From Bacteroides luhongzhouii (GTDB lineage Bacteria; Bacteroidota; Bacteroidia; Bacteroidales; Bacteroidaceae): a stretch of DNA of 64,000 bases. Shown piece by piece: positions 30,825 through 56,970 of the stretch. The stretch's first letter is position 1. Each line of letters opens with the position of its first letter. The stretch spans positions 4,216,001 to 4,280,000 of the forward strand of contig NZ_CP059973.1 of assembly GCF_009193295.2 (NCBI RefSeq). Reading direction: 5' to 3'. The notes beneath the pieces were generated by a model, which saw nothing but the letters and a program-made list of their open reading frames with translations, was not told where the DNA came from and searched no databases. The translations under genes were made by a program, and so were the position numbers.

Positions 30825-30860
30825 CAAAAGTACCTTCCAGATAAGCCTTAAAAAAGGACA
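30825..30860 (-). promoter_or_regulatory. Phage late promoter P1 (fibre-lysis operon)
   Basis: On the minus strand TGTCCTTTTTTAAGG (30860-30846), 13 bp, then TACTTTTG (30832-30825). One of four sites with the identical 15-bp upstream box. Confidence 0.8.
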
Positions 30861-30863
30861 ATA

Positions 30864-30893
30864 AAAAACCCCAAGTCCTCACGGATTTTGGGG
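30864..30893 (-). terminator. Terminator of the candidate sRNA / tape-measure region
   Basis: Minus strand: CCCCAAAATCC with GGACTTGGGG and then six T. It lies between late promoters P2 and P1. Confidence 0.8.
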
Positions 30894-30970
30894 CTAGTTT
30901 CATTTAGTTTTAACTTTAAACTTGTGACAGGAAAGCGTCTCCCGACGCAAATACTCCTCTATAACAAACA
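30864..30970 (-). ncRNA. Candidate phage small RNA (~105 nt)
   Basis: Begins about 6 nt after the -7 box of promoter P2 and ends at the terminator. It holds no ORF longer than a few codons but has a stable GCGTC-GGGA-GACGC hairpin in the middle. The promoter has no other gene before the terminator. Confidence 0.5.
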
Positions 30971-30975
30971 CATTG

Positions 30976-31011
30976 CAAATATACTCTCCTTTCTTGCCTT
31001 AAAAAAGGACA
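30976..31011 (-). promoter_or_regulatory. Phage late promoter P2 (drives only a short transcript)
   Basis: Same 15-bp box (31011-30997), 13 bp, TATATTTG (30983-30976). It abuts the stop codon of the tape measure gene. Confidence 0.8.
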
Positions 31012-34000
31012 CTAACCACGACTCACATTCCTTTCCATTCTCTCTAATTTTTTAATCCCATCACGAACAGCTCGCGAATCAACAATTAAATCTTTCTCAA
31101 GAATAGATTGAAGCAAATCATTATTCGTATTCAAAAGAACGAATAGTTTACGCAACGTCTCTTCATCCATGATATGACCACTAACTGTATATCGGGAGGA
31201 AGAAGATACTGAATCATCAGAATAACCACCACTATATTTACCACTTTTAGTACGTACCTGCTCTAAAATTTGTGTAGTGTTCAACATTCGGATTGTTCCA
31301 TTCTTTTGCGCAACATTAAAAACATCAAGAAATTGGCGTACATGAGGATTCTCTACTCCCTCATGATTGGTCACGAATTCATTTTTATGAACGGGAATAA
31401 CTCCGGCAACATCATCCGGATTTCCTGTTTTAGTATATCCTTCAACATATTCATCAGAATAACCACCGGACTTCAAGCCCTTCGCTTCATCCCGTTGCTG
31501 TTTGGCTACAGCTATCTGTGCCGCACCACTAGCTACAGCTGCCGCAGCTGCAATGGCACCAAGAGCCGGACCAACAATAGGAATACCGGCCATTGCCTTA
31601 TATGCTTCCATTGCAGCAACAGCAGTACTTGCAGTAATTTGTAAAACCGATACGGCAAATTGTTTGTCTGCATACTTCCTCTTTACCTGATTTAGTGCCT
31701 CTTCTTTCTCTTCTTCTAACTTAGTTGTATCCTTTCCCGCTTTTTTGGCGGCTTTTATTTCCTTGTCATATTTATGAGTTACTTTGTTCATTTCTGCATC
31801 TTGGAATCCCTGAACAGCAGAAGAAGCACTGCTCATTATACTACTTACAGCATTGAAATACTGTTCATTTCCTTCTATCTTTTTCTGAATATATTCATTA
31901 TTGATTTTATTTTTTGCAATTTCGTATTCTTCCTCTGAAAGCAGCCCTTTTTTATGTTCCTCCTCAAGAGCTTTCAGTTTTAAATCTCTAATATCCTCGG
32001 CAGCGTCCAACTCATATTTTTGTATAACAGTAGCCCTATCCTTCGCTCCTTTTTCTTGAATTTTCCTCTTAGATTCTTCATATACAGACGTAAGAAGAGT
32101 AACATCCAACCCATTCTTTCGAGCTAGTTCTAATTGAGATTTATAAAAGGATTCCAGTGCTGCCAGTTGTTGGTCAGTGGAAGCCAAACCGTTCATCTTA
32201 TTGAACTGGTTACTGAAATTCTGAATCTGACTAGCGCTATCCCGTACGATCTTGGCGCGCTTATCGCTAATTTGTTGTTCAAGGTTGAGAATATTATCCC
32301 CGGCCTCCTTTAAGGCTTTGGCTTTGACCTCTCCATTTTGGAACTCAAGTTCAGCAACATCGTTTTTATAATCTTTTGCAATTTCGAGTCTGGAATATAA
32401 AGAGGTAATCTCAATAGCTAAAAGGCGATTTTTATAATCTTTTTCTGTCAGCTCACCACTATCATTGAGGTTAGACTGTTCAAGCAGAAGATTTTTCTCT
32501 CCGACATTAACAGTATTCAGCCTCCTGTCCCGATATTCTTTAATTAAGTTGAGACGAGTTTCTTCTGACTTTTTTAGAGTATTGTAAATTGCGCTTTGTG
32601 CCTCACTTTCCAATTTACCCAATTCAGCCAGATGTTTCTTATCTTTTTCACTTGACTGATACTTTTTGATGATTGCCAACCTTTCAACCTGAAATTCCAG
32701 TTCTTTTTGAAGAGCATCCAACTGATATTCATTCTCCGTTCTGGCTAACGCATCAGAACTCTTTTGTAGCAATAATAATTCTTCTTTGTATGCGTTTTCT
32801 GCATTTTGCAAACGAGTAGTCCAAGGCTTCTTGTCTTCGTCATCCGGTGGAGGTGGAACTCCTTCTGTATTCTTTTCTACCTCTATTTTTATCAATTTCT
32901 TACGAGATTCTTCCATGTGCGCATTTAGTAGAGCCACCTCGTTATCAATAGCTCTCACTTGATTAACACCTTTATTTATATATCTATCCAAAACATTGTC
33001 AGCCCATGAATCTGTCATTAAACCTAGAGACTGCTTAAATCCATTCAACATATTAGCAGCACCAGCCTCAATATCCTCTAAAAAAACATTATCTGGACCA
33101 TTCTTTAATATATCATTTTTTTGGTCATTCAATTCAGATACTTTCTGCTGAGTTTGTTTTATCTCCTCTAATATAAGTAAACTATCAATATAGGCATTTA
33201 CAGCAGTAGTGGCTTGCTCTGTATTTATTTTCTCTAAAGTAAGACTACCCAAATATTCAGGAGATAGTTCATTTAATCTTTTTATAACAGCCTCTCTCTC
33301 CTCTTTGCTTCTTTTCTCGTCCCTAGCTATATTTAAGAAATCCTTGACTGATACAGCTTCTTGATTCACTATCGAAACAGATCGTCTACGAATATCTTGA
33401 AGATTCTTTTCCAAACGCTCACTCTCACTTAACTGTTTATTTGTATCAATAAGTAAACCTATAAGAGATGCACCTATCGTTAGGAGTAGTCCCCATGGAT
33501 GTGCTTTTGCAACACTATATAAAGTTTTTAGCCCCATGACAATTTTACCAGTCCAAAGTACTTTAGCTTTATCTGCAATAACCGAAGCATTGACAGCAAT
33601 TGTATATCCTGCAATGGTAGATGTTGCAAGTATAATTGCATTTTTATATTTACTAAATATGGATACTATTTTAACTAATCCTTTGACTGTAAGACTACCA
33701 GTACTCACCATATATTTCATAACAGGGAGCAACCGTTCTCCAAGTTCGATCCGAATTTCCTTAAAACGCTTCTTAGCTTTATCCAGCTCTGCCTGAACCG
33801 TCGTATTTTGTACATTATACTCATTCGTAATACTGGTACCATCAATGAAAGCCTGATTAGCAGTCTCCTGTTCTTTACGGACCTTCTCAACATTGCTAGC
33901 TAATGCGCTGATAACTCCGGCCGCTTCAGCACCACTCAACTTCATTTCCTTTAAAACAGGTGCCATTTTATCCATGCCACCTAATTTCCCCAAACTAGCA

Positions 34001-35115
34001 AGGAACTGAAGAACAGCTTCATTAGCATCCGTCTCCATCAGCGTTGTGAATTGCTTAACATCCATTCGAGCTATTTTCGCGTACTTTGCAGGCTCCTGAT
34101 ATAATTTTAAGATCAATCCTTGTAAAGCAGTACTGGCCATTTCGCTACGAAGCATATTTTGATCGAGTGCCGAAGCAAAGCCCATGACATCAGTAATTGA
34201 AAGTTTTGCCTGTTTTGCCACTCCCCCCATGCGCGCACTGAATTCCACCAAATAAGGTTCAGCAGCACTAGAATTTTGTGCGACTTCGTTCACCGCACTA
34301 CCGATAGCTAACATATTTTCTTTCATTGAACGTTCGCTATCTCCAAACATATCTGCCAGCTTACCAATATTCTTGATAGCATCCTGCCCCAAATCTTCTC
34401 CAAGTGCAACATCAATCATATTGGCAGCTTCTACAAACTCCAGAACATCATTTTTCGCTGTAATACCAAGCCGCCCGGCATCTCCTGCAAGTTCATTTAA
34501 ACGTTCACGTGCTGTACGAGTATCTATCTTCTTAAACTCCTCATTTAAACCAGCGACCTGTTCACTCGTCATGCCAGTATATTTACGTACCTGGCTTTCC
34601 GCTTCCTGCATCTGTGCAAACTCATCCACACATTTACGGGCGGTCAAGGTTATTCCGGTCAACGAGGCTATAAAACTTGCACCGATGGCTCCATATTTAT
34701 TAAATCCATCAGTCAATTTTGATAAAGAGAACTTAGTAGATTCCGCTGTACCTTTTAGCTCTTTCATTCTTTGGTTAACTGCGTCCAGTTGTGCTTTATA
34801 CTGAGTGTATAGTGGACTATCACCCGGCAAATTCCGTAGAATGGCATTCAGTTCTTTTTGCCTGTTTTGGAGTTCCTTCACACTCAAACTTCCGATACCT
34901 ATCTTTTCAAAGAGTTTATCATACTCGGTCTGTAGTGCTTTAACGACTTCCTTTTGTGCTTTATACTCTGCACTATTCTCTCCAAATTTCTTTTTCAGAG
35001 AATTCAAAGTTTTATTGGCTGAACGCATTTGCTCTTCCAGCTCAATCATTTTTTGCCTCGCACTATCCTGTTGAATAACAATTTCCAGTTGTACTCTGTC
35101 TATCTTTAAACTCAT
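31012..35115 (-). CDS. Tail tape measure protein
   Basis: 1367 residues, the longest gene of the prophage. An N-terminal coiled coil (VIQQDSARQKMIELEEQM onward), then the TP901-type tape-measure core (EAESQVRKYTGMTSEQVAGL, NELAGDAGRLGITAKNDVLEF), hydrophobic segments at about 500-560, a long heptad coiled coil (about 700-1150) and a Gly/Ala-rich hydrophobic stretch (AGIPIVGPALGAIAAAAAV). It sets tail length, so a long-tailed (siphovirus or myovirus) phage is implied. Has its own late promoter. Confidence 0.93.
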   Translation of the reverse strand: MSLKIDRVQLEIVIQQDSARQKMIELEEQMRSANKTLNSLKKKFGENSAEYKAQKEVVKALQTEYDKLFEKIGIGSLSVKELQNRQKELNAILRNLPGDSPLYTQYKAQLDAVNQRMKELKGTAESTKFSLSKLTDGFNKYGAIGASFIASLTGITLTARKCVDEFAQMQEAESQVRKYTGMTSEQVAGLNEEFKKIDTRTARERLNELAGDAGRLGITAKNDVLEFVEAANMIDVALGEDLGQDAIKNIGKLADMFGDSERSMKENMLAIGSAVNEVAQNSSAAEPYLVEFSARMGGVAKQAKLSITDVMGFASALDQNMLRSEMASTALQGLILKLYQEPAKYAKIARMDVKQFTTLMETDANEAVLQFLASLGKLGGMDKMAPVLKEMKLSGAEAAGVISALASNVEKVRKEQETANQAFIDGTSITNEYNVQNTTVQAELDKAKKRFKEIRIELGERLLPVMKYMVSTGSLTVKGLVKIVSIFSKYKNAIILATSTIAGYTIAVNASVIADKAKVLWTGKIVMGLKTLYSVAKAHPWGLLLTIGASLIGLLIDTNKQLSESERLEKNLQDIRRRSVSIVNQEAVSVKDFLNIARDEKRSKEEREAVIKRLNELSPEYLGSLTLEKINTEQATTAVNAYIDSLLILEEIKQTQQKVSELNDQKNDILKNGPDNVFLEDIEAGAANMLNGFKQSLGLMTDSWADNVLDRYINKGVNQVRAIDNEVALLNAHMEESRKKLIKIEVEKNTEGVPPPPDDEDKKPWTTRLQNAENAYKEELLLLQKSSDALARTENEYQLDALQKELEFQVERLAIIKKYQSSEKDKKHLAELGKLESEAQSAIYNTLKKSEETRLNLIKEYRDRRLNTVNVGEKNLLLEQSNLNDSGELTEKDYKNRLLAIEITSLYSRLEIAKDYKNDVAELEFQNGEVKAKALKEAGDNILNLEQQISDKRAKIVRDSASQIQNFSNQFNKMNGLASTDQQLAALESFYKSQLELARKNGLDVTLLTSVYEESKRKIQEKGAKDRATVIQKYELDAAEDIRDLKLKALEEEHKKGLLSEEEYEIAKNKINNEYIQKKIEGNEQYFNAVSSIMSSASSAVQGFQDAEMNKVTHKYDKEIKAAKKAGKDTTKLEEEKEEALNQVKRKYADKQFAVSVLQITASTAVAAMEAYKAMAGIPIVGPALGAIAAAAAVASGAAQIAVAKQQRDEAKGLKSGGYSDEYVEGYTKTGNPDDVAGVIPVHKNEFVTNHEGVENPHVRQFLDVFNVAQKNGTIRMLNTTQILEQVRTKSGKYSGGYSDDSVSSSSRYTVSGHIMDEETLRKLFVLLNTNNDLLQSILEKDLIVDSRAVRDGIKKLERMERNVSRG

Positions 35116-35141
35116 AGTTTCCCAACTAATTAATTAATACA

Positions 35142-35177
35142 CAAAAGTACCCTCCAAAGAAGCCTTAAAAAAGGACA
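35142..35177 (-). promoter_or_regulatory. Phage late promoter P3 (tape measure)
   Basis: 15-bp box 35177-35163, 13-bp spacer, TACTTTTG (35149-35142); 26 bp before the tape measure ATG. Confidence 0.8.
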
Positions 35178-35210
35178 CCAAAAAGGCTCGCACTTGTATT
35201 TGCGAGCCTT
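35178..35210 (-). terminator. Terminator of the portal-tail operon
   Basis: Perfect 10-bp stem AAGGCTCGCA / TGCGAGCCTT with a TTTTT tail on the minus strand, immediately before promoter P3. Confidence 0.85.
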
Positions 35211-35215
35211 ATATT

Positions 35216-37081
35216 CTAGCCATCCAACCATCGTCCACTGTCCAGCCATGTACCGCCATCTCTCCATTTCCCATCTGTCAGAATCCACCGTTTTTCTGCT
35301 TCTACATCACTAATCCGGATCGGATAGAATGTGCCTTGCCATGCTCCAGACCTTCCATCAGCATTGATAACATCCTCTATCTCTTTACAGACATAACGTT
35401 TGTTCCGGATTTCAAATATATTCCGCGTATCATAAACGTTAACATCATAACTCTTTATCTTGATGCCGTGCTTATAATCAATATCGTACATACGTGAATA
35501 GAGCATTTTATCTAAATATGCTAAGCGCAAATTACCTGTATATGGGGTGTCCTCACAGTTAAAAGAATGAGGGTAATCAATCGTGAAAACTTTAGGGTTA
35601 AAATCCTTATCATCTTTGCGCTTTACATAAAGAGTCATCGGTGACATTCCTTTGTAGTATGATACATAAATCTTTTGTTGATTCTTATCTTTTTCCGTAG
35701 GGATGTTTTCTCCGCTTTGTATTAACTCATAAATGCCATTACTTTCATCACTGGTACCAATCTTGCTTCCGAATATTTTTGGAACTGTTACAAGTGATCG
35801 TTCAGAGTCGGGCATAAATACCGGCTCCATACCACTCTCATAAGTGATCCGTTCTATACCATAGTTCGTCATATCGGAAGGCATAATGTTTAATTTGATT
35901 TCATTTTCACTCTGCTCCCGAAGAACATCACCAAACATATTTACTTCATCTGTGTGCCATCCCCTATTCGAATCATCAGGTACCGTAATGTAGTACCGGC
36001 AACTATCATGCGTATAAAACAGATAGTTTTTAACAGCCTGGTATCCGGATGAGCTAATACTTTCTACAAATTGAGTGAATTCCAGTACTGTATCAAAATC
36101 CTTTCGGGTCGCAGAAGAAAGAATATTTTTATCTATATGCTGTGGCTTGTAATATTCACTGTCAGTCGGTTCTATCAACACATTACTTTGAGAAGGGTCT
36201 TTGTCGTTCTCCCCCTCTTCTGTTTCGTATTCATCTACAACTTGCTGAACATGGCAAACCTGTGCATTTTTAAAATATTCTGCCCTGAACAGTATAGAAA
36301 CTTCCTTCTTTCTATTATTGACAAGAAAACACAGATTAAAAAAACTCTCAAATTCCGTGATGAGTTCATTTATAGTCCATCCGGGAAACATTTTTGCATA
36401 TTGGTTGGGGTGCCCATTTTGTGGCAAATAGAGCAAATTCCACTCCGAATCTTCCAGCTGATTAGTCAAAACTGTATATCCAAGTGCTTTCATTAACTTT
36501 CTAATATAAGCGCAAAGATACGGTTGCAGATAAATATCCACTCCTGTTTCTCTCAAATAGTTGGGAGATATAGTTGGCTTTGAAGTAGTAACAACAGTTA
36601 CAGCTACCCTCCATCCATTAATCACACCCTTGTCTGTCATTACAGGAGGTATGCAATAATCCACGTCCGGATATATGCGTTTTACCAAGTTATTGATAAT
36701 GCCTGTTGGAATTTCATCTTCTCCCATATCCAATGATGATACAAGCAAATCGTTTCCAATGAAAGAATTCAATTCGGAGTTTCCCGAAGCTATTTGTATG
36801 GATACTGTTGAATCTGTCCATCCCGTTATGATTTCCGTACCATTGCAATACACTCGGTTATCAGCGACCAATACAGCTTGTCTCTTGGTCTTTAGTTCGG
36901 CAATAGAGTTCGATCTGTTCAGATGTTCATATAAGTCTGCATTAATTGAGTTACTAAGCTGAAGAGTAATATCATACGTATACTCCCCATTCTTTGTAAA
37001 GAATGGATTCTCACGTTTTACAGAAGTGCTAAAGTCGGCAGGAAGTACCACCGAAGTCCCATCAATATATAATTCAGTCAT
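35216..37081 (-). CDS. Phage structural protein, probably tail/baseplate
   Basis: 621 residues, beta-rich, beginning MTELYIDGTSVVLPADFS. No enzyme motif. The conserved opening (a short YIDG strand and a KRENPFFTKNGEYTYDI segment) resembles tail proteins seen next to tape measures in Bacteroidota prophages. Ends with a Trp/Gly-rich tail (WILTDGKWRDGGTWLD). Start overlaps the preceding gene by 8 bp. Exact role unknown. Confidence 0.6.
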   Translation of the reverse strand: MTELYIDGTSVVLPADFSTSVKRENPFFTKNGEYTYDITLQLSNSINADLYEHLNRSNSIAELKTKRQAVLVADNRVYCNGTEIITGWTDSTVSIQIASGNSELNSFIGNDLLVSSLDMGEDEIPTGIINNLVKRIYPDVDYCIPPVMTDKGVINGWRVAVTVVTTSKPTISPNYLRETGVDIYLQPYLCAYIRKLMKALGYTVLTNQLEDSEWNLLYLPQNGHPNQYAKMFPGWTINELITEFESFFNLCFLVNNRKKEVSILFRAEYFKNAQVCHVQQVVDEYETEEGENDKDPSQSNVLIEPTDSEYYKPQHIDKNILSSATRKDFDTVLEFTQFVESISSSGYQAVKNYLFYTHDSCRYYITVPDDSNRGWHTDEVNMFGDVLREQSENEIKLNIMPSDMTNYGIERITYESGMEPVFMPDSERSLVTVPKIFGSKIGTSDESNGIYELIQSGENIPTEKDKNQQKIYVSYYKGMSPMTLYVKRKDDKDFNPKVFTIDYPHSFNCEDTPYTGNLRLAYLDKMLYSRMYDIDYKHGIKIKSYDVNVYDTRNIFEIRNKRYVCKEIEDVINADGRSGAWQGTFYPIRISDVEAEKRWILTDGKWRDGGTWLDSGRWLDG

Positions 37082-39432: not shown

Positions 39433-39442
39433 ACTATATCAT

Positions 39443-40290: not shown

Positions 40291-41649
40291 TTACACCTGA
40301 TTTGTTGCCCGTTTATCTGACGTTACATTATCCTCTTTATTGATAACCTTGCGATACATACCAACAAAAAGACCTTTCTTATGTGGAAAGTTTATTCGGA
40401 TTGCATCATTCAGAGCCTCCAACGCTATTTCCTCCGGGATTTGCGTATCAGCTCCATAGAAGATCTTTAATGCATATAGCATTTGGCTGCCACTGTCACC
40501 TTTGCCGTCGATGATGATGTTGGATAACGCAGGATTCAATCCAAAGCCGCTTGTAGTAGAGCTATCAGCTATCCTTGATATTTCCGCCTGTGCTGCGATG
40601 TATTTATCTACGTTCATTTCGATTGGCTCGATTTTCCATGATTGCAGGTTTCCGTCCTGATCCACAAAGTCCACACAAGTGAAGAATTTACCTGCATTCT
40701 TTTTACCGGCCATGACATCTGCAATCCTCTTGGTAAGTTCATCTCGCAAACGGTCTATTTCTTCGTATATCTGTGCTTCTCTCCATTCTTCGTGCATGGC
40801 ACGTATCATTTCTTCTTTCTGCCTCCAATACTCTTCCGGCTCATGAACAATGTATGCAGATGCAATCATATTCTCATTTAGATATTGGATTATTTCCGGA
40901 AGGGTATTAGCATCCAATAGCCAGGGAATCGAACCATGAAAACTGGAAATTGCATACATATTGCGCCCGAAACTACGCATACTATGATATTTCACAGCGG
41001 TTTCCGTAGCTGAAGGATTCCATTTATCGAAGATGCTATACAACATCATCCTCTTACTGGTATAACTGTCAAAGTCCCCAATAAGAAACTGTTTCACATC
41101 TTCCAATCTCCGGCTGTCATTCTCCGGCCATACCATCCGGCAATCTGTACTGTGAAGGGCTTCCAAACGGGTTATCCACGGTTTACCGATCCGGATTGAT
41201 TTGGCTGCATAGTATTTCACAAATACTCCTTTCATGTGATTGTACTCTACAAAAGCATTACGAATATAACTCCGATAATCCCATGTATCAAGCCATTCCT
41301 GTATCTCATTATCTATCAACCACTCTTGCACACGTTCATTGTTGACTACATTCACCCGATAAAGCATCGGACCTTGACCATACATCAAACCTGTTTTGCG
41401 ATCCAAAATGCCCGGTCCCAGATTATTCTTTTCAAGAATGTCACGTACTGTCTTCGGAAGATTATTATCAATTCCCCAGGGAACAACGCGAACTCCGGCT
41501 ATTGTCACCGGATCACCATCCCAGTTGGAGGAAGAACCATTAAAAAAACTACTTAGTTCATTGTTACCTAAACTCATATTGATGGCATAGGTACCTACTC
41601 CAGCATCAACAAACCGGAAGCCTCCAATTTTCTCCTTTATTTCAGCCAT
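40291..41649 (-). CDS. Portal-like protein
   Basis: 452 residues. The WGIDNNLPKTVRDILEKNNLGPGILDRKTGLMYGQGP opening, a long helical region with RLRDELTKRIADVMAG, and EISRIADSSTTSGFG resemble portal proteins of Bacteroidota phages (dodecameric DNA gate of the capsid). No catalytic residues to check, so the call rests on pattern, size and place at the head-to-tail transition. Confidence 0.6.
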   Translation of the reverse strand: MAEIKEKIGGFRFVDAGVGTYAINMSLGNNELSSFFNGSSSNWDGDPVTIAGVRVVPWGIDNNLPKTVRDILEKNNLGPGILDRKTGLMYGQGPMLYRVNVVNNERVQEWLIDNEIQEWLDTWDYRSYIRNAFVEYNHMKGVFVKYYAAKSIRIGKPWITRLEALHSTDCRMVWPENDSRRLEDVKQFLIGDFDSYTSKRMMLYSIFDKWNPSATETAVKYHSMRSFGRNMYAISSFHGSIPWLLDANTLPEIIQYLNENMIASAYIVHEPEEYWRQKEEMIRAMHEEWREAQIYEEIDRLRDELTKRIADVMAGKKNAGKFFTCVDFVDQDGNLQSWKIEPIEMNVDKYIAAQAEISRIADSSTTSGFGLNPALSNIIIDGKGDSGSQMLYALKIFYGADTQIPEEIALEALNDAIRINFPHKKGLFVGMYRKVINKEDNVTSDKRATNQV

Positions 41650-42085
41650 TATAATTCAATTTTCTATTTTCCAATATCCCTTTTAAGCGGGCGATTTCCG
41701 CATCACTCAAGCCATACATAACTCTCGAAATCAATCGGTTCAGCCCTCCATACATATTTTTTGCATACCATCTCGTATTTTTCTTCACCGGATTCCGGTT
41801 TGCTTTCATTCCCCAAACCGTCCGGTTTGTATCAACTTGATGCCGATTCTTCTTATTTCCCGCAATTTCAAAAGCACGACCATAAGAAAAGAAACTAACC
41901 TTTAATCCCGGATTCTCTCCGTCATGGAAAGTTTTATAATCTATGCTATCATGCAAAGCATCCGTCTGCATGAGCTCTCTTGTCTCTATAGCTTCAGTAA
42001 GTATATCACAAAGCCATTCTCCGTGCTGTGACAGTTCCTCCTCAATAAAAAGGGTCTTTAATTCCTTGCTTTCGTCACTTTCCAT
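41642..42085 (-). CDS. Hypothetical phage head/neck protein
   Basis: 147 residues, basic C-terminal half (KANRNPVKKNTRWYAKNMYGGLNRL) somewhat like minor head or tail-completion proteins. First gene after late promoter P4; overlaps the portal-like gene by 8 bp. Confidence 0.55.
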   Translation of the reverse strand: MESDESKELKTLFIEEELSQHGEWLCDILTEAIETRELMQTDALHDSIDYKTFHDGENPGLKVSFFSYGRAFEIAGNKKNRHQVDTNRTVWGMKANRNPVKKNTRWYAKNMYGGLNRLISRVMYGLSDAEIARLKGILENRKLNYNG

Positions 42086-42104: not shown

Positions 42105-42140
42105 CAAAATTACATACGAGAAAGACCTTAAAAAAGGACA
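42105..42140 (-). promoter_or_regulatory. Phage late promoter P4 (portal-connector-tail operon)
   Basis: 15-bp box 42140-42126, 13-bp spacer, TAATTTTG (42112-42105), 19 bp before the ATG. Confidence 0.8.
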
Positions 42141-42141
42141 C

Positions 42142-42179
42142 AAAAAAGCCCCGACTGCACTCACAATCGGGGCTTTTTT
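42142..42179. terminator. Bidirectional terminator upstream of P4
   Basis: AAAAAAGCCCCGA pairs with TCGGGGCTTTTTT. Ends the 42193-42540 gene and isolates the accessory island from the portal operon. Confidence 0.9.
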
Positions 42180-42192
42180 ATTATTTCAAACC

Positions 42193-48797: not shown

Positions 48798-48821
48798 TTT
48801 GCGGTTTCTAAAAACCGCAAA
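48798..48821. repeat. Operator-like palindrome TTTGCGG/CCGCAAA
   Basis: Perfect 10-bp arms with a 4-bp centre; the half-site TTTGCG matches the half-sites of the switch operator at 63614-63636. Confidence 0.5.
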
Positions 48822-48975
48822 TGAAACGGAGTTCTGCCCGACACGCGCCGATCCCTTTTTGCGGTCGCACCCCCCTTTTGGGGTGGGAAATATGACAAAA
48901 TCCTTACAATCCCACACTATCAAATTTTCCCTAAGAAAATGCTACCTATCTGCCTGCCTCAGGCAGGTGTACATG

Positions 48976-49009
48976 AAAAAGCCCCGCTATCTTCACAGAC
49001 TGCGAGGCT
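48976..49009 (-). terminator. Terminator of the terminase operon
   Basis: AGCCTCGC / GCGGGGCT stem followed by TTTTT on the minus strand. Confidence 0.8.
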
Positions 49010-49030
49010 AACCACTCGAATAAAAACAAA

Positions 49031-50785
49031 CTATACCCTAGATGCAACAGATATATTGCGCCCAGTCTTCCATATCCGTATCCATTCCTTACGTAACATA
49101 AGATATTTAAGTGCATCCGTAAGATTGGTTGACTCTTTAGGTAACCGGTTGGTAGGTAACTTATCTCCAGTCTTTAGTTTGACTATCTCTGAACTACCAT
49201 CAGAACGGCTTACAGTCTTTGTTCCGGTTATTTCCATCTCACTCTTGAGGTTGGAACAATTATACTGGTCAAATTGAATGGTAAACAATCCCCGTTCTAA
49301 ATTGCCACTTAACAAATCCATGAAGAAACGATATTCCAAATTACTACCAATATTGCCCTGCCCTATACTCATTAACTGTACCTGCCATCCTGTCCTTGTG
49401 CCATCAGCATAGTATTCTATATTCTTTTTTATTTGAGTAGCCATGTCCGCCTTGACTTTATGATAATTATTCATCGAACGATCATAATAGAGTTTCAATA
49501 TCTTCCGTCTATGTGGTTTAAAATATTCCAAGAAATTATCAGCCAGTTCTCTGGCTGTATTAGGTGGCAACGTATAGAGTTCTTTCAATACTTTGTATTT
49601 CTTTTTGTCCTGTTGCCCAAATACCATAGATAGCATATTACCGGAGTCCATTCCGGCTTCAATGGGCCTATTCATGTCTAAATGCCTAAGTACTGTGCAA
49701 TCCTCCTTCCATCCCAACGGCTTCTGCTCTATAATCTCATTAATGAATCCATCAGCATAAAAATGCCGGATAGCCAAATTACAGTAAAACATTTGCCCGG
49801 CTTCCAATTTGGGGATAATCGAAAGGATATTGCACAGAATTCCTTCAAGCCCCTCGGAGAATTCATCACTAAACCAATCCAGCCCTAAAACGTCTGCGTT
49901 GACATAAGAGGACGAAATGAAAAAAAACGATGTACGTGAACGTGTCTTGATCCATCGTTCTTCCCACCGCTTCATATTGCGTCCTGCGAGTTCCAGTGCC
50001 CGTTGCAGTTTATTAAGACTTGAAGCTAATGATTTATCAAAGCGATATTTCTTCAGCACTTCATTATATTCCTGCAAGGTAGCTACATACGTCTTTTTCG
50101 TCTCGTTATAGACAAATCCCGCCTGGAGCATTAACAGGATTTTATCTTTATCGTTCTGTTTAGCTAGTTTCAGAATCCAGTCATATTCGCCAATATGGTT
50201 AGGATTAGGCATATCGGTAGTAAGGGTACGACTACGGTACCAAACATTCATTCCATACTTCACCCTGAAACCCCGTACAGCTTTCAACAGATTCGTAAAT
50301 TTCTCCTCCGGGAAATACTTGACTTCATCACCGAACACTCCAACATACGAACGTCCTGCACCGATAGACGGTCTGTCTAAAGAGATGAATGTGAAATTAA
50401 ATCCGGTATAGAAAACCATAGTGTTACGCCAGTCCGTACATACATTGTACATTCTTTCCTGCCATTCTTTAGGCGGCTCCTGATTAATCACATAGTGAGT
50501 GCCGATTTCCCACCCTAATAGAGAGAGTCCATCTATAAGCGAAGGAATGACATTCTTATGCAAATCTGAATATGTATCAGCTACCCATGCGAACGGTGCG
50601 CCCTGACAATCCTGTGCAACTTCTTGCACTCGTTCTGATAATACTTGCACTGTTTTAGCACTGGCACGCCCGGCAATCCAATAAAGCGCCCATGGCATCA
50701 TTATTGATATGAGCTGGGCCATCCAATTTGCGTATCGCTGTTCTACATCATCAGTCGATGTCTTTAGTTTTTGTTTCCTGGTCAT
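49031..50785 (-). CDS. Terminase large subunit
   Basis: 584 residues from the ATG at 50785; the TTG-started extension adds only four residues. The ATPase domain has a Walker A-like GRASAKT near residue 35, a Walker B VFGDEVKYF near 180 and coupling motifs; the nuclease domain has EAGMDSGNML near 390 (first metal-binding Asp) and a later DLLSGNLERG segment. Pumps DNA into the prohead and cuts it. Last gene of the terminase operon. Confidence 0.9.
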   Translation of the reverse strand: MTRKQKLKTSTDDVEQRYANWMAQLISIMMPWALYWIAGRASAKTVQVLSERVQEVAQDCQGAPFAWVADTYSDLHKNVIPSLIDGLSLLGWEIGTHYVINQEPPKEWQERMYNVCTDWRNTMVFYTGFNFTFISLDRPSIGAGRSYVGVFGDEVKYFPEEKFTNLLKAVRGFRVKYGMNVWYRSRTLTTDMPNPNHIGEYDWILKLAKQNDKDKILLMLQAGFVYNETKKTYVATLQEYNEVLKKYRFDKSLASSLNKLQRALELAGRNMKRWEERWIKTRSRTSFFFISSSYVNADVLGLDWFSDEFSEGLEGILCNILSIIPKLEAGQMFYCNLAIRHFYADGFINEIIEQKPLGWKEDCTVLRHLDMNRPIEAGMDSGNMLSMVFGQQDKKKYKVLKELYTLPPNTARELADNFLEYFKPHRRKILKLYYDRSMNNYHKVKADMATQIKKNIEYYADGTRTGWQVQLMSIGQGNIGSNLEYRFFMDLLSGNLERGLFTIQFDQYNCSNLKSEMEITGTKTVSRSDGSSEIVKLKTGDKLPTNRLPKESTNLTDALKYLMLRKEWIRIWKTGRNISVASRV

Positions 50786-50808
50786 CGAGCATTTCAATTA
50801 TATCCACA

Positions 50809-51357
50809 TCAATCACTTGCGCATCCCTCCCGCTCCGGAATATCAGGAATAGAATCAATCTGTTCAGCAAGCAATTGCCTGTTAACCTGTGGAATTCCTA
50901 CAGCCTGCGTATCAAGCATATAAATTTTTATATGCTTTTCGTTGACTTCCTTCCGTTTCTGCGGATCAGGTTTATCCAATTGTTTGATCTTAGCTGCCTG
51001 TATCATCAAGTTTCCATACACTTCCATGTCCTTAGAAGAATGTGCATTTATTAATACAACCTGTGCCGCTTTCTGCAGATTATCATACATCATATTTCGG
51101 TGAGCGTTATTTTCTACCGAATCATTCGCAAAAAACAGGTTTATAGCCTCATTATACATTTCCCTGGCCCTAGCTCTTTTTACCTGAAAAGGATCATGCA
51201 TAAGGAAAGATATTGCATTATCCTTACCATATTTCCGCTGTATGCCAATCAGGGCGTACAGCGCATTATAATAATCCATCTCATCATCCGTTAGTTCCAT
51301 TGTACAACCGGATGCCAAGTAATCCTGTAACCTGTCAAAATAAGAAGTTTCAAACAT
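50809..51357 (-). CDS. Phage packaging-region protein
   Basis: 182 residues, helical, no clear motif; between the TerS-like and TerL genes. Overlaps the TerS-like gene by 8 bp. Could be a terminase accessory protein. Confidence 0.6.
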   Translation of the reverse strand: MFETSYFDRLQDYLASGCTMELTDDEMDYYNALYALIGIQRKYGKDNAISFLMHDPFQVKRARAREMYNEAINLFFANDSVENNAHRNMMYDNLQKAAQVVLINAHSSKDMEVYGNLMIQAAKIKQLDKPDPQKRKEVNEKHIKIYMLDTQAVGIPQVNRQLLAEQIDSIPDIPEREGCASD

Positions 51358-51712
51358 TCTCTATATCTCCGAAAAAAACTTGGTTAATCGCATTCTTAAA
51401 ACCGACTTCACGACGCAGTTTATCAAGCCGCTGTGCCTGAGTTACATTATCACCAACTTCAGCACTGGCCGTCATTGATAATCCTTCCTTTGCCTGTTGT
51501 ATCAACTGTCCACGTTCATAATGGTATTTCAGTGGAGAACCTACCAAATTGAAGTACCACTCAAAATCATTCAAAGGAATATTGTAAAACATGGCTAATT
51601 GCTTAGGAGTATATCCTATAGCTGCCAGCTTTTCATATTCATCAAAGTTAATCCTGTCATACCATACCGGATTTTCTCTCCACTTAACCAATTCGTCCGC
51701 AACGAAACTCAT
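51350..51712 (-). CDS. Candidate small terminase subunit
   Basis: 120 residues. An HTH-like segment (YEKLAAIGYTPKQLAMFYNIPLNDFEWYF, about residues 26-54) near the N-terminus and a helical oligomerisation-like C-terminus, the plan of TerS proteins. Position two genes before TerL agrees. Confidence 0.6.
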   Translation of the reverse strand: MSFVADELVKWRENPVWYDRINFDEYEKLAAIGYTPKQLAMFYNIPLNDFEWYFNLVGSPLKYHYERGQLIQQAKEGLSMTASAEVGDNVTQAQRLDKLRREVGFKNAINQVFFGDIENV

Positions 51713-52244
51713 AGACTTCCTTACTTTTTAAAAATACATATTGTTCTTCCATCGCATTCTCGCCATAGTTTCCACTCCCTTCTACAACAAAAAAGCCTTT
51801 AGGCGTATCCAAACAAGTTATCTTCTTATGGCTCCACGCAAAAGACAATTCAATAACCCCATCTTGATGGAGTGCCATCAACCTTTCAAAAATCTTAGGC
51901 ATACGAAACTTTATTGTCTCGGAAATATGCAAATGAATACTCCCAATGGCCCCTTTCTCCTTCCATCGGAGCAATGCATTAATTATGCGTTCATTGGTTG
52001 AATAAGTTGCTATATACAGGTGTTCCAAATATCCAGTATGCTTGAGTAAGTAAACTATAAAAGTAAATGCCGTAAAACTTTTCCGTGTTTCTATGAAAAA
52101 GACTTCATTTTCTTTTGGAAGTCGGCCGCATAACTCTTTGAGATTATTCAATTTATATGTTTGAAGCATTTCAAACCGCTTCGAATACATTCGTGACTCA
52201 CGCAGTTCTTCACGTAGCTCGTTTAAATCAAAATAATAACTCAT
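51684..52244 (-). CDS. PLD-like phosphodiesterase-fold protein
   Basis: 186 residues. A single HKD motif: H-K-K-I-T-C-L-D (HxKx4D, near residue 138) followed after 9 residues by EGSGNYGEN (GSxxN-like). One HKD per chain implies a dimer if active. Phospholipase D-like proteins include nucleases; a DNA- or lipid-cleaving role is inference. Overlaps the TerS-like gene by 29 bp and the previous gene by 4. Confidence 0.65.
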   Translation of the reverse strand: MSYYFDLNELREELRESRMYSKRFEMLQTYKLNNLKELCGRLPKENEVFFIETRKSFTAFTFIVYLLKHTGYLEHLYIATYSTNERIINALLRWKEKGAIGSIHLHISETIKFRMPKIFERLMALHQDGVIELSFAWSHKKITCLDTPKGFFVVEGSGNYGENAMEEQYVFLKSKEVYEFRCGRIG

Positions 52245-52924
52245 TCAAGTAATCGGTTCACCTCTTCCAATTCAGCTTTGTAACCTGCCAGTCTTTCCCG
52301 TCGTTCGATATCCAAATGCGGCTTATCTCCTTTATTCAATTCGCTAGTTACCCGCCAAATATTGTTTTCTATCTGTTTTTGGCGTTTTACAAGTTCTTTT
52401 ATCGGTAGTCCCAATAGTTCTTTTCTCCTTTTAAACTCATTAAAAATCGGATGCTTCCCTAATAAAGACTTATTCTGCTGATAATAATTCAGTTCATCCC
52501 ATATCATCCGGTTTTCAATATAACTGTCTATTAATTGTCTGCTAACAGAAGTACATTGATTCAGATCAGTGCAATCGCGGAGTTGAGAATGTAATTCAAC
52601 GTATGCATGATATCGTGAAAATTTTCGGGAAGCAAGTGCCTCCAACTCCACCGGACATGATTTCTCGTTTAAAAACGAAAATTCTTCCCGAAAAGACTTG
52701 GGTTTACGGCTGAATGTTATCTCTGTTTCTTTCCAGTTTGTCGTAAAATCCTGATTAATATTGTATTTCTTGCAAAGAAATGCAACCATCATTCTCTTAT
52801 TGCCGGAAGGGTTGGAACGAACCAGACGCAACGTTAATGGAGATACGCCCGACTGTTCCATCAAGCGTATTCCTTCTTGAGCATTTGCTCCATTCTTCAG
52901 CCAAGCGATTACAATCTCTTTCAC
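52241..52924 (-). CDS. Hypothetical phage protein
   Basis: 227 residues, helical and charged, ending in a coiled coil (RLAGYKAELEEVNRLLE). GTG start, overlapping the stop of the Stealth-like gene (GTGA). No recognised family. Confidence 0.6.
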   Translation of the reverse strand: MKEIVIAWLKNGANAQEGIRLMEQSGVSPLTLRLVRSNPSGNKRMMVAFLCKKYNINQDFTTNWKETEITFSRKPKSFREEFSFLNEKSCPVELEALASRKFSRYHAYVELHSQLRDCTDLNQCTSVSRQLIDSYIENRMIWDELNYYQQNKSLLGKHPIFNEFKRRKELLGLPIKELVKRQKQIENNIWRVTSELNKGDKPHLDIERRERLAGYKAELEEVNRLLE

Positions 52925-53787
52925 TCTTCAAATTCGGATTTATCCGGGAACATTTCAAGTAAATATTTCATTAGAAAGTCAGAATATCCACTTTCTGCGT
53001 TATTCAGGAATATTTTCTTTGATACCAGTTCCTGAAATTTCTTGTGATCCGGTTGCTTGGATACGATAGACAATGCAATGTTATCGCTTTGCCAGTTCAA
53101 TTCGATAGAAGAAATAGGATCGAACTCTGGAAAGAGAGTATTAAAATAAACAGATGAGATCAAATAACCACCTGTATTCAATTCCGGGAACCTTTCAAAC
53201 ATATCTACAAGACTCTGTTTTTCGTAAACAACAGGAGTATGTGTTCCAAAATCTAATTTGGGAAAATCTGCCAGCAATGCAACTGTACGCTCCATATTAT
53301 CCCTATAAATGCCTTTATATAGTTCTGGACGCAAGATTCCTTTATTTTTAGGTACCTCAATATGAGCCAGCATTACCGGAGCTACAAGGTAGATATCATC
53401 ATTGGACCAAATAAATTTATCAGTAACTTCATCGGCAGCAATAGCCAATTTTAATTTTTCAAGTACATCAATCTGAGGATTATCTGACACACATTCATGT
53501 TCTATGACTGTAACAACATCACTCATCCATTCCTCCCGGTCGCCAATGATGACAACATTAACACCAAAACGCAGGAATTTATCAAAAGAGCGCAATGCCA
53601 TTTTCAACTCATTCCCTTGTGCTTTGTTCTTAACATAAGGAATTACCACCGTTGTATGATCCAGTATGGCTAAATTCTCTTGAGATGCCAGTCCCCCGCT
53701 TGGAGCCTGATCTTGTTCCACACTAGAAGCCTGATTATTTACTGAATCAGCTTCCACTTTTTTTCCTTCTTCCTTTTTAGTTCTCAT
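52921..53787 (-). CDS. Stealth-like / nucleotide-sugar phosphotransferase-like phage protein
   Basis: 288 residues. A low-complexity charged start (about 1-40) is followed by TTVVIPYVKN, VVIIGDREEW and KFIWSNDDIYLV, the acidic pair that in Stealth (capsular polysaccharide phosphotransferase) and related sugar-transfer folds binds metal, then DFGTHTPVVYEK. The conserved order is suggestive, but later Stealth blocks are weak, so a diverged member or a glycosyltransferase-like protein is meant. First gene of the terminase operon under promoter P5. Confidence 0.6.
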   Translation of the reverse strand: MRTKKEEGKKVEADSVNNQASSVEQDQAPSGGLASQENLAILDHTTVVIPYVKNKAQGNELKMALRSFDKFLRFGVNVVIIGDREEWMSDVVTVIEHECVSDNPQIDVLEKLKLAIAADEVTDKFIWSNDDIYLVAPVMLAHIEVPKNKGILRPELYKGIYRDNMERTVALLADFPKLDFGTHTPVVYEKQSLVDMFERFPELNTGGYLISSVYFNTLFPEFDPISSIELNWQSDNIALSIVSKQPDHKKFQELVSKKIFLNNAESGYSDFLMKYLLEMFPDKSEFEE

Positions 53788-53806
53788 ATTCTTATTTTTT
53801 GATACA

Positions 53807-53842
53807 CAAAAGTACCATTATCCCAATACAGGCAAAAGGACA
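53807..53842 (-). promoter_or_regulatory. Phage late promoter P5 (terminase operon)
   Basis: Variant upstream box ending GGACA (53828-53842, plus-strand reading), 13-bp spacer, TACTTTTG (53814-53807); 19 bp before the ATG. Confidence 0.7.
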
Positions 53843-53846
53843 CAAA

Positions 53847-53882
53847 AAGAGGTGCTATATCCAATATGGATATGCACCTCTT
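53847..53882 (-). terminator. Terminator of the capsid operon
   Basis: AAGAGGTGC / GCACCTCTT stem with an inner ATATCC/GGATAT helix and a TTTTT tail on the minus strand. Confidence 0.8.
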
Positions 53883-53905
53883 CTCAACACAACAAACAAA
53901 CTTAT

Positions 53906-54496
53906 TTATAGACCTCCTTTAGATGAGCCTGACGCACTACCAGCCAATCCTAAAATAGCATTGATTTCCTCACTGTCTGTAGCCGGAATAAGGCTCTTGG
54001 CAATATGTCCAATTGTAGCCCCACGCAGTGAACTTGCCAAGTTGATCGTATTTTTATCACCTTCTTTGTTATCCTGTGAATCTGCTTTTGTGAGTTTCAA
54101 TGGAGTACAGGGAGTACCTGCTATCTTTGCATCATCACCTGAGCAGCCAAAAACAATAGCTCCTAAATCTTCATTGATATTGTTGTTTACAAATTCATCG
54201 TGTTCAACCTCTGTTCCCGGATGCTCATAATCTACATGATGAATGAAGCCACGCGCATCGTCTTCTCCTTCGCTTGTGTGATAAATGTTAATAGTAGAGT
54301 CGGTTGCATAGACTGCAATCGGCTTTTTCCCATCTGCCAAAGCGAATTCCTTAACACATACTCCTTTTTCATCACGGTTGTATGTCTTTACATCATTCCA
54401 GCGGAAATAGACAATATACGCCTTTTTACCTTTCGGGCGTCCTGCATTCGATGTCTTCTTAGGAACCGATACAAACTGATATACTGATTCTGCCAT
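53906..54496 (-). CDS. Phage virion protein after the capsid gene
   Basis: 196 residues. Begins ESVYQFVSVPKKTSNAGRPKGKKAYIVYFRWNDV and ends in a Gly/Ser tail (GLAGSASGSSKGGL). No enzyme motif; the position right after the capsid gene suggests a head decoration or a tail-tube-like protein. A good Shine-Dalgarno (AGGAGGT) precedes it. Confidence 0.6.
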   Translation of the reverse strand: MAESVYQFVSVPKKTSNAGRPKGKKAYIVYFRWNDVKTYNRDEKGVCVKEFALADGKKPIAVYATDSTINIYHTSEGEDDARGFIHHVDYEHPGTEVEHDEFVNNNINEDLGAIVFGCSGDDAKIAGTPCTPLKLTKADSQDNKEGDKNTINLASSLRGATIGHIAKSLIPATDSEEINAILGLAGSASGSSKGGL

Positions 54497-54517
54497 AATT
54501 TTACCTCCTTTTATTTT

Positions 54518-55990
54518 TTAAAGCCCACCAGCTTCGGAGACAGACGCTCCTGACTCTGTGGGTGGAATATATGCGAAAATAGCTTCAGCAATCCAAAATC
54601 CAGTTGCTTCCCACCATTCAGCAAAAATCTTCACCTTATAGTTTTCTCCTTGCATCCAAATTTTTGTAGCTTGTGGGTCCTTACTACGCAAATGTTTGAA
54701 GTTCTCTTTTGGAGTAATAAAGAAAACTCCGGTACCACGCATACCTTCAAGTGGAGCAAATGTGAATTTAGAGAAATCGACTTTCACTTTTTCTCCATCT
54801 TCATTCTTCAACCAAGGATATTTCTTGCGATATGCTTTTCCATAGCGCGTTACAATGTCCGGATCGGCATGAATAAACATCTGTTTCTTTTTGTATAACG
54901 GTTTAACCTCTTCAACCGCCTTGTCGATCTGATCTACCAGCTGTTCATCCGACAGCTTCTCGCCATTGAGCAACCAGGTAATAGCTTTATTATTCGCTTC
55001 TTTCAATGCTACAAGTTGAGTGACATACCCATCCATAACTTCATTGGCTTCTGTTGCATCATCACCGTCTTTCACAGCTTTAGACTCTACAAACTTACCT
55101 GTAGCCAAAGCAACCTCACGCTCTTCGTCCAACTTAGGGAACACAAGTTGATTTAAGATATACTTTACAACCGGCATATCTTCCGGCTTCAAGTTCTCAT
55201 CATAAAGATATCCGATGATATCCTCCATCACATCAGATGGAACGATAGCAACGTTAATTTTACATTTGAAATTCTTAATGGTAAGCGGAGTAAATTTAGT
55301 TTTTCCTTTGGGCGTCCAATGGGGAGTAAACTGCTGTAATACCGAATCAATTGCTGCCTGTTGTGCACGAACCTCCACTTTATCGGTAGCGATGGTGGAC
55401 ATATACTGCGTAGATTCGGTCTTTCCCATCAAACTTTGCAGGATTTCAAGACGTTCACTATTTACATACTTACCAAATTCTTTTTGCAGTTCGGTAGTTT
55501 CAATAGTTGTATTGCCTGAATAAGAAGCACCGGGTCTTCCATAATAAATAGCATCAACATATTTATTATGCGACAGATTCATGTCCGGTTTAAAAGTCTT
55601 TCCCATATTATCCGCATTTGTTCCTGTTACAACCTTTCCTGCATCAGCAGTTTCTTCCTTTTCCAACTTAGCGATTATGGCATCGGCTTCCTCTTTCTCT
55701 TTTTCCAGTTTGGCAATACGTTCACGAGCCTCTTTCAACTCTTTCGCATTTTTCCCTTTCTCAACCTCCATTTCAGACAGAAGTTCTTCTGTTACCACAC
55801 TCTCTGCAGTTTTCCCCTCCTTTTCGAAATCGGCAAGATCCTTTTTGAACTCCTCGACGAATTTTTTTCCATATTTATCTTCCAGTTTAGTCTCCTGCTC
55901 TTTACTCATTGAGGATTTTCCGTCCTTGTCTTTAGCTAAAGCTGAGATTCCCAAATATCCAAATACGGCAGCAACTACTTTTTCAAACAT
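54518..55990 (-). CDS. Major capsid protein with N-terminal scaffold-like region
   Basis: 490 residues. Residues ~40-125 form a Lys/Glu coiled coil typical of a fused scaffolding (delta-like) domain; residues ~130-480 look like a capsid fold (KVEVRAQQAAIDSVLQQF, KINVAIVPSDVMEDI, MFIHADPDIVTRYGKAYRKKYPW, GMRGTGVFFITPKENF). The protease gene just upstream would remove the N-terminal part during maturation. Confidence 0.85.
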   Translation of the reverse strand: MFEKVVAAVFGYLGISALAKDKDGKSSMSKEQETKLEDKYGKKFVEEFKKDLADFEKEGKTAESVVTEELLSEMEVEKGKNAKELKEARERIAKLEKEKEEADAIIAKLEKEETADAGKVVTGTNADNMGKTFKPDMNLSHNKYVDAIYYGRPGASYSGNTTIETTELQKEFGKYVNSERLEILQSLMGKTESTQYMSTIATDKVEVRAQQAAIDSVLQQFTPHWTPKGKTKFTPLTIKNFKCKINVAIVPSDVMEDIIGYLYDENLKPEDMPVVKYILNQLVFPKLDEEREVALATGKFVESKAVKDGDDATEANEVMDGYVTQLVALKEANNKAITWLLNGEKLSDEQLVDQIDKAVEEVKPLYKKKQMFIHADPDIVTRYGKAYRKKYPWLKNEDGEKVKVDFSKFTFAPLEGMRGTGVFFITPKENFKHLRSKDPQATKIWMQGENYKVKIFAEWWEATGFWIAEAIFAYIPPTESGASVSEAGGL

Positions 55991-55992
55991 AA

Positions 55993-56907
55993 TTATGCAC
56001 TTTTTGAATTAATATATTCGTTTACATACGCATCTCTGCGCAATTCTCTCACTCTTCTCAATGCAAACTCTCTAGTACCAACCGAATCAATCAAGCCATT
56101 TTTTTTGGCGTCGTTCGCATAGAACATGCGCCCGGCAATGATCCCTTCCGTTTCGAGGTTAAGTTTACTACCTCTTCTACTTTTAACTGCTTCTTGGAAT
56201 CCTCTTGCGAGCGGATCAAGTTCTTCTGTTTTGATTGCATCATATTTTCCCTCCTTCGCCGCTTCAAACGGCGCATTTTTATAAGATGATAAATTACTAT
56301 AGATTGTATGAACCTTTATTCCATCTTTCTCATAATATTTGGCATAATCCGGAAAACTCATCATTACACCAATAGAGCCAAATTCCGAAGAGATTGTGTT
56401 AGAAGCAATAATTTCATCGCAATAACAAGCTACATAGTAGGCAGCAGATGCGCACAAATCACAATATGCAACCACACACTTCTTTTTCTTCTGTGCATAT
56501 TGGATTGCATCAATGAGTGGGGCGATAGCATCAACGCTACCGCCACCGGAATCTATGTCAAGCAAAATACCAGAAATTTTCGGGGAATCTGCAGCCTGAT
56601 TTACCATCTCTGCTACTTCAGTAGTTCCATAACTACAGTATGAACCGTATTTCAACATAGAACCTTGAAGCCCTATGACTGCCACACTATCTTGTGGTGC
56701 ATCTGAAAAATCGTGTCCGGATTTCATTTCTGTTTCGGACATCGCACATACAACTATGGGAGACTTATCTGATAGTTTGGTTATATCTTCACTCTCAACC
56801 CCTCTTTCTAAAAGAAGATTAATCAGGATTTGGTTGGCTTCCACATCCCGAAGTGAGATAAACCATTTACCTCTCAAAACAGCACTATATAAAGAAGAAA
56901 ATGCCAT
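55993..56907 (-). CDS. S49/SppA-type prohead protease
   Basis: 304 residues, ClpP/crotonase-like fold. Signature GILLDIDSGGGSVDA, catalytic Ser154 in LCASAAYYVA and Lys210 in SSYKNAPFEA, the Ser-Lys dyad of the S49 family. ISSEFGSIGVMMSF also fits. Cleaves the scaffold region of the capsid protein. First gene of the capsid operon under promoter P6. Confidence 0.92.
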   Translation of the reverse strand: MAFSSLYSAVLRGKWFISLRDVEANQILINLLLERGVESEDITKLSDKSPIVVCAMSETEMKSGHDFSDAPQDSVAVIGLQGSMLKYGSYCSYGTTEVAEMVNQAADSPKISGILLDIDSGGGSVDAIAPLIDAIQYAQKKKKCVVAYCDLCASAAYYVACYCDEIIASNTISSEFGSIGVMMSFPDYAKYYEKDGIKVHTIYSNLSSYKNAPFEAAKEGKYDAIKTEELDPLARGFQEAVKSRRGSKLNLETEGIIAGRMFYANDAKKNGLIDSVGTREFALRRVRELRRDAYVNEYINSKSA

Positions 56908-56934
56908 GTATTTTTATACTTTATTTGTTTGATA

Positions 56935-56970
56935 CAAAATTACAATGACTTACCGCCTATTAAAAGGACT
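56935..56970 (-). promoter_or_regulatory. Phage late promoter P6 (capsid operon)
   Basis: Variant box CCTATTAAAAGGACT (56956-56970, plus strand), 13-bp spacer, TAATTTTG (56942-56935). It overlaps the end of the preceding gene. Confidence 0.7.

Follow-up and report, generated by a model that had tools for sequence, protein, structure and literature searches.

A predicted late promoter class with an upstream GTCC box in Bacteroidota siphophages, and its candidate activator

The prophage and its six promoter-like sites

The window analysed here, a stretch of 64,000 nucleotides in the 5.76-Mb genome of Bacteroides luhongzhouii (G000:C1:4216001-4280000), holds a prophage whose left end is marked by an integrase and two tRNA-Pro genes and whose right end lies beyond the window, behind a gene that resembles a repressor. 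On the minus strand of the prophage lie genes of replication type, a LuxR-like gene, genes for a head protease and a tape measure protein, and further late genes. The same strand bears six short elements, each a conserved box set at a fixed distance ahead of TAnnTTTG, and these elements, together with a 164-amino-acid (aa) protein, P0002, that may read them, are the subject of this study. A first-pass annotation, made from the sequence alone, had described the six sites as four identical 15-mers and two variants, with five standing directly before the first gene of an operon and four following a terminator. The six sites were confirmed letter by letter, and five do precede genes and four a hairpin-linked position as described. 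The four identical copies read TGTCCTTTTTTAAGG, the gap between the 15-mer and TAnnTTTG is 13 bp at every site, start codons lie behind five of them (ATG at 30820, 35115, 42085, 53787 and 56907), and hairpins with T-runs precede those at 35177, 42140, 30860 and 53842. The hairpins at 35177 and 42140 were also returned by a terminator scan; the one at 30860 was seen in a fold and the one at 53842 by eye, both being absent from the scan.

Primary promoters of Bacteroides, read by sigma-ABfr, are described as a -33 TTTG and a -7 TAnnTTTG separated by a spacer of variable length (PMC7366714). The -7 element is present at six of six window sites. At the -33 position the sites have TTTT or other letters in place of TTTG, and it is the GTCC just upstream that is the conserved part. 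The unit common to all six, ahead of the late operons of this prophage, is GTCCTTTT-N19-TAnnTTTG, and it is this core with its spacing, not the 15-mer alone, that exceeds chance: with up to 3 mismatches allowed, the 15-mer has 4 matches against 3.47 expected, the two variants not being among them. The late strand of the prophage has 6 copies of the core pattern and the opposite strand 0; there are also 0 copies on either strand of the 21.3 kb of host DNA at positions 1-21300 of the window, and 0 in 200 first-order Markov (Markov-1) resamples of the late strand. Random occurrence elsewhere in the genome, which the first-pass annotation had named as a refuting outcome, was likewise low, as only 8 exact matches exist genome-wide, of which 6 are these sites and the other two fall within open reading frames of 346 and 413 codons. 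When every 8-mer was counted at every offset before TTTG, GTCCTTTT at -27 ranked first in the prophage.

One of the six sites, 31011-30976, has no gene directly downstream, and from it about 110 nt extend up to the hairpin that precedes the site at 30860. This promoter would yield a candidate late small RNA of about 110 nt. The stretch 30861-30972 folds at -29.9 kcal/mol (z -2.55) and matches no Rfam family at gathering score; the family BTnc231 was considered and rejected (19 bits, where the gathering score is 80.4), and the true BTnc231 copy of this genome lies elsewhere (G000:C1:2595310, 133 bits). Coordinates of all features are collected in Table 1; the gene that diverges from the lytic genes at the right is repressor-like and, by our reading of its sequence, of XRE type.

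Table 1. Positions in the window of the predicted late promoters and of the prophage features discussed in the text
Feature	Position	Strand	Remarks
Tyrosine integrase	21455..22666	+	left end, adjoins two tRNA-Pro genes
90-aa late gene, PHROG 26140 (unknown)	30548..30820	-	relatives in 15/24 box genomes
Late promoter 1	30825..30860	-	box GTCCTTTT, N19, TACTTTTG; GTCC at -27; hairpin ahead in fold
Candidate late RNA, about 110 nt	30861..30972	-	between promoters 2 and 1; ends in terminator-like hairpin
Late promoter 2	30976..31011	-	overlaps end of tape-measure gene; no open reading frame directly downstream
Tail tape measure protein	31012..35115	-
Late promoter 3	35142..35177	-	ahead of tape-measure gene
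Terminator-like hairpin	35183..35210	-	directly ahead of late promoter 3
Late promoter 4	42105..42140	-	ahead of 147-aa gene 41642-42085
Terminator-like hairpin	42140..42181	-	directly ahead of late promoter 4
Late promoter 5, variant	53807..53842	-	ahead of gene 52921-53787
Head maturation protease	55993..56907	-	PHROG 53
Late promoter 6, variant	56935..56970	-	ahead of head-protease gene; no terminator seen upstream
P0002, 164-aa protein, proposed late activator	57481..57975	-	proposed from distribution among box records
LuxR/GerE helix-turn-helix protein with four-Cys motif	62795..63355	-	PHROG 10300; early regulator
Repressor-like gene	63705..64000, runs beyond window end	+	divergent from lytic genes; family shared with other genomes

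A predicted promoter class of Bacteroidota siphophages

A pattern scan of IMG/VR returned at least 120 loci, a count from which no rate can be derived. Among the matches listed, 126 were sorted by a crude rule, which called 47 of them promoter-like and 38 coding and left 41 ambiguous; many lay after a T-run and 10-30 nt ahead of a start codon. From these matches a box set of 50 loci in 49 records was picked by hand, with a control set of 44 records that come mostly from other host groups; the sorting misfiled at least one, as control record G029 (locus L095) has P0002 and a match that reads like a real promoter. At no more than 1 mismatch, the 49 box records, all selected for having at least one site, hold 180 sites, and the reversed pattern gives 50. 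Twenty-seven of these records, fetched mostly or whole, have one structural module in common, which they also share with Flavobacterium phages of the Duneviridae. In a set of 25 genomes, 23 of which were box-selected, position -27 of TAnnTTTG holds GTCC 80 times and GTCT 13 times; at six other offsets taken together GTCC appears twice. Maps of 14 genomes place several sites per phage on the late strand and before late operons, with a few on the other strand or lacking a nearby ATG.

The scan of related prophages suggested by the first-pass annotation recovered the box at its fixed spacing, and the annotation's coordinated late promoters persist as a phage late promoter class; its view of a six-member family in one prophage was too narrow, since the same unit recurs in diverse Bacteroidota siphophages. 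The sites almost certainly represent a late promoter class of the form T-GTC[C/T]TT(T)-N18/19-TAnnTTTG. In comparison of the sequences the 15-mer is a local elaboration, and what is shared is T-GTC[C/T]TT(T) with a spacer of 18-19 bp; the dyad CCTTttttAAGG inside the 15-mer was rejected as a feature of the class, being found at four window sites only. The class extends over phages of Bacteroides and relatives, a Flavobacterium Unahavirus and others, that is, a large lineage of Bacteroidota siphophages. A record named as a phage of another host, 'Microcystis phage' Mea-Yong924-1 (L138, MZ447863), also has GTCCTTTT at -27 as its first-ranking 8-mer, four copies reading ACACGCTGTCCTTTT; its module, P0002 and box are as in Bacteroidota phages, and the stated host may be wrong.

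Details of the consensus come from 196 distinct N19 sites with an open reading frame within 60 nt, where the search pattern fixes some letters and only the free columns are informative. T precedes GTC in 77%, the fourth letter is C in 87%, GTCCTT is followed by T in 91% and then by T in 70%, and the first letter of the -7 element is T in 84%. The distance to the ATG is most often 16-22 nt, and at 23 sites it is exactly 4 nt. The ATG of the 90-aa gene likewise lies just 4 nt past the TTTG of late promoter 1, and this distance, shared by the 23, suggests a nearly leaderless late mRNA.

Position relative to genes was compared through orthologs of nine anchor genes, four of which have no ortholog in the stretches and are hence uninformative. 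Among 38 unique sequences upstream of head-protease orthologs, GTC[C/T]TT is present in 37 and GTCC in 31, and ahead of a 288-aa gene the counts are 18/30 and 14/30, respectively. Three operon-internal genes gave GTCC in 5/46, 1/41 and 0/45, and GTC[C/T]TT in 3/46, 0/41 and 0/45, or 3/132 when pooled. Sites with GTCC at -26 correspond to the N18 form ahead of the head gene. The -7 element is degenerate in some relatives, its first letter being C or G in G190, G227 and G095, and in the deepest relatives the box is kept after a terminator with the -7 element degenerate. The letters that follow GTCC differ by phage, with GTCCCA and GTCCCT in G213 and GTCCTAC and GTCCACA in G241.

Several further elements were observed around the sites. 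Upstream of orthologs of the gene 52921-53787, the spacer between box and -7 element often contains a palindrome, TTGCAATTGCAA or GGTAATTACC, possibly the operator of another regulator. Some leaders, for example that at G080 36915 (-), have an inverted copy of the -7 region just ahead of the ATG (CTTGTAATTTTG...AGTTACAAGTATG). In four genomes (G056, G062, G065 and G091) the P0002 gene is preceded, 3.0-3.7 kb upstream, by a GTACTTTT/GTACTTTC-N19-TAnnTTTG site that may belong to a distinct class of middle promoters; the sole further GTAC site, in G092, lies downstream.

Use of the element by hosts was assessed in 149 genomes of the window's order, with counts summed from the match table. Exact matches number 36 and fall in 20 of these genomes; 8 are in the genome of the window itself, and the 148 others contribute 28, against 46 for a reversed control, so that no host regulon is visible in them. 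This promoter type is common to many related phages, and the hosts do not appear to use it. The annotation had argued that a box in place of the -33 TTTG implies a phage or host activator or an altered sigma contact; the box does lie at -33 and host use is not visible, and with both in hand a phage-encoded factor is the natural reading.

Candidate readers of the box

Forty-one genes of the window's prophage were compared by iterative profile search with 24 box genomes (G077, G079, G083 and G084, of 20.7-28.2 kb and without P0002, were left out), and P0002 proved to be the sole member of the 8 tested early-side genes (57481 to 63355) found in 24/24. In whole records the family occurs in 34/49 of the box set, comprising 30/31 of those of at least 28.9 kb and 4/18 of those shorter, and in 1/44 control records with chance-like matches only, that one being G029. 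The P0002 gene lies upstream of the TAnnTTTG-class sites in 23/25 genomes, the two that differ (G047 and G072) being perhaps permuted linear records.

Loci were also chosen by P0002 without regard to the box. Relatives of P0002 occur in 17/149 genomes of the order, and 12 of 21 matches were used in a first blind test; the window's own, G171, G144, two of G145, two of G115, G100 and G143 were left out as contig ends or weak or second matches. On the late strand of these loci GTCC stands at -27 of nAnnTTTG 21 times; the 61 other offsets average 0.51, with 4 as the highest count. On the antisense strand the count at -27 is 2. With GTC[C/T] and nAnn[T/A]TTG, sites are found in 10/12 loci in sense (28 sites) and in 4/12 in antisense (5 sites). 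A second blind test took 59 loci found by P0002 alone, 13 of 72 being left out because their contigs were box-selected; one of the 59, L238, is near-identical to a box-selected record and supplies 2 of the 27 unique sites counted at -27. A further 10 sites lie at -26, the mean elsewhere is 0.92, and the comparison regions gave 5 upstream of P0002 and 5 on the antisense strand. At least one site is present in 29/59 loci.

Flavobacterium phage FPSV-D35 offers a case of parallel change. Its P0002 homolog is 17% identical and its genome has no GTCCTTTT; in its stead CATGTCTTAAA occurs at five places on the late strand, each 18 nt ahead of TATACTTG, TAAACTTG, TACTTTTG, TAATTTAG or AATATTTG, and three of the five follow what looks by eye like a terminator hairpin. 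GTCTTAAA itself has one additional copy on that strand and one on the opposite strand; 1.6 copies per strand would be expected. A diverged P0002 homolog here accompanies a diverged box, although this phage also keeps a LuxR-like gene, so that the covariation does not by itself separate P0002 from the LuxR-like protein.

The P0002 family has 182 relatives in all, and among the best 120 two are named 'transcriptional regulator' and the rest are hypothetical or uncharacterised. A copy 98% identical is present in Bacteroides sp. GM023, the alignment between two distant subfamilies spans 143 columns (E 2.7e-5), and an alignment of 67 sequences (A3) has an invariant Arg, R146. P0002 has no match in Pfam, PHROG or NCBIfam, and likeness to solved structures, sought by sequence, was nil or meaningless. 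A second, distant homolog in the same genome (G000:C1:4025131-4025619, minus strand) was rejected as a box-linked copy, having no box at the right spacing downstream; it is probably a phage remnant.

On balance P0002 is probably the late activator that reads the GTCC box, and a number of observations weigh against this. Five late genes (37520, 38512, 40291, 49031 and 53906) are also present in 24/24 box genomes, so that the presence of P0002 may reflect inheritance with a shared late module. In the second blind test, 30/59 loci have no site within about 10 kb by a strict TTTG test. The 42-kb record G090 has box sites and a LuxR-like gene and no match to P0002, and phage laban6-1 has a P0002 homolog and no box was found in it. 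No DNA-binding domain or fold is recognisable in the protein, and hhalign gave it no likeness to Mu C or Mor (probability 0.1) or to RinA (0.3). Finally, the box hardly varies although P0002 proteins are 13-69% identical to that of the window, a constancy that could also be explained by a conserved reader of the host.

That a host factor, either a sigma variant or a conserved activator, reads the box and is exploited by phages alone is nevertheless considered unlikely. The constancy of the box across deep divergence and a -7 element that is the host's own speak for it, but no host regulon is visible in the order, and the box is altered in FPSV-D35. The LuxR-like protein, which the first-pass annotation had put forward as the activator, has a GerE helix-turn-helix, and its family is found in 19/49 box records and in 0/44 control records, which differ in host group; it accompanies the box without P0002 in G090, and, as FPSV-D35 has it too, it is compatible with the altered box of that phage. 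However, only 18/31 box records of at least 28.9 kb have the gene and 13 lack it, though records may be fragments, and a profile run at E up to 5 found none in the fetched stretches of G046, G048, G051, G053, G056, G058, G068, G072 and G074. Among the 24 box genomes it is present in 12, or 13 if G088 is counted, whose copy lies outside the stretch analysed. Phage Versailles has the gene and no box in the 50 kb read out of its 58 kb, and the helix-turn-helix segments of the family vary widely, though P0002 varies as much. Direct activation of the late promoters by this protein is thus distinctly unlikely, and it is perhaps an early regulator placed upstream in the cascade. Its family (alignment A1) mostly conserves a four-Cys pattern (C80, C105, C111 and C118 in the protein of the window), possibly a metal or Fe-S site.

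It is very unlikely that a different protein of the phage, either late or diverged beyond recognition, is the reader: the five genes that, like P0002, are present in 24/24 box genomes would qualify, but each of them sits behind the first late promoter, within the late region, and could hardly start the switch. Scarcely credible is the proposal that the GTCC box belongs to a terminator, processing or packaging signal ahead of the operons. A T-run of at least 4 lies directly upstream of 72/196 sites, which favours it; no such run is present at 124/196, the 18-19 bp to the -7 element is kept, and the box stands ahead of operon-leading genes rather than internal ones. Two other groups were tried as readers and rejected. 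Proteins with sigma70 region 4 match in 19/49 box records at E 0.01, of which 1 passes the cut-off; for 14 of the 19 records it is the LuxR-like gene that gives the top match. A protein beside the primase with two helix-turn-helix-like segments is found in 6/32 genomes with weak Pfam matches. This small protein occurs in G046, G047, G048, G051, G059 and G078, directly before the primase in G046, G048 and G051, and several of the genomes that have it lack the LuxR-like gene.

A proposed late switch and its relation to known systems

The promoter-like class, with its position, spacing, conservation and link to the P0002 gene, is read directly from the genomes; we infer that the sites initiate transcription, and that P0002 binds DNA and acts through sigma or polymerase. 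In the proposed scheme, lytic induction would switch on the early operon and with it P0002, encoded at the end of that operon, and P0002 would then turn on the operons for head, tail and lysis. The -7 TAnnTTTG would be read by the RNA polymerase of the host, carrying the primary sigma factor, and the phage activator on the GTCC box would replace or assist the -33 contact, where sigma region 4 would normally touch DNA. Sigma might still make a weak contact with the TTTT at 19 bp, GTC[C/T] being the part that stays. Four of the six promoters would be insulated by the terminator directly upstream. It may be, although we hold this tentatively and somewhat short of an even chance, that P0002 is the founder of an undescribed family of late activators, by which phages usurp the contact made at -33 by the unusual primary sigma factor of Bacteroidota, with one box, GTC[C/T]TT, kept as a general late switch of a Bacteroidota siphophage lineage though many of the activators share just 13-20% identity.

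No paper on this promoter class was found in open-licence PubMed Central. If the scheme is true, late operons of a widespread group of Bacteroidota phages could be predicted from a consensus, a protein family outside Pfam, PHROG and NCBIfam would gain a role, and the promoter with its activator could be used as an orthogonal switch in laboratory Bacteroides. Replacement of the -33 contact of the Bacteroidota primary sigma factor could also be investigated through this class.

Mu C, Mor and staphylococcal RinA are late activators encoded between early and late genes. P0002 resembles them in being small, in being encoded just before the late genes and in its proposed role as a switch for several late operons; it differs in having no sequence similarity to them, and the box is different. 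Phage T4 appropriates sigma through MotA and AsiA: a box of the phage close to -30 takes the place of the -35 contact, and the -10 element stays. Replacement of the upstream contact by a phage box near -30, with the downstream element kept, would be the same here; no MotA-like or AsiA-like protein was identified in these phages. The crAss-like phages of Bacteroidota carry their own RNA polymerase, and they have in common with the present phages the host phylum and a staged transcription; unlike them, no phage polymerase is proposed here, and the host -7 element is used. Regulators of LuxR type (PHROG 10300, Pfam GerE) are an early gene in many of these phages, and their presence does not track the box. 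A further comparison is with the sigma-ABfr promoters of Bacteroides: the -7 element is the same and the distance similar, with TTTT where TTTG would be, whereas the class has GTC[C/T]TT(T) for the -33 TTTG, has a spacer of 18-19 bp and is seen in phages (PMC7366714).

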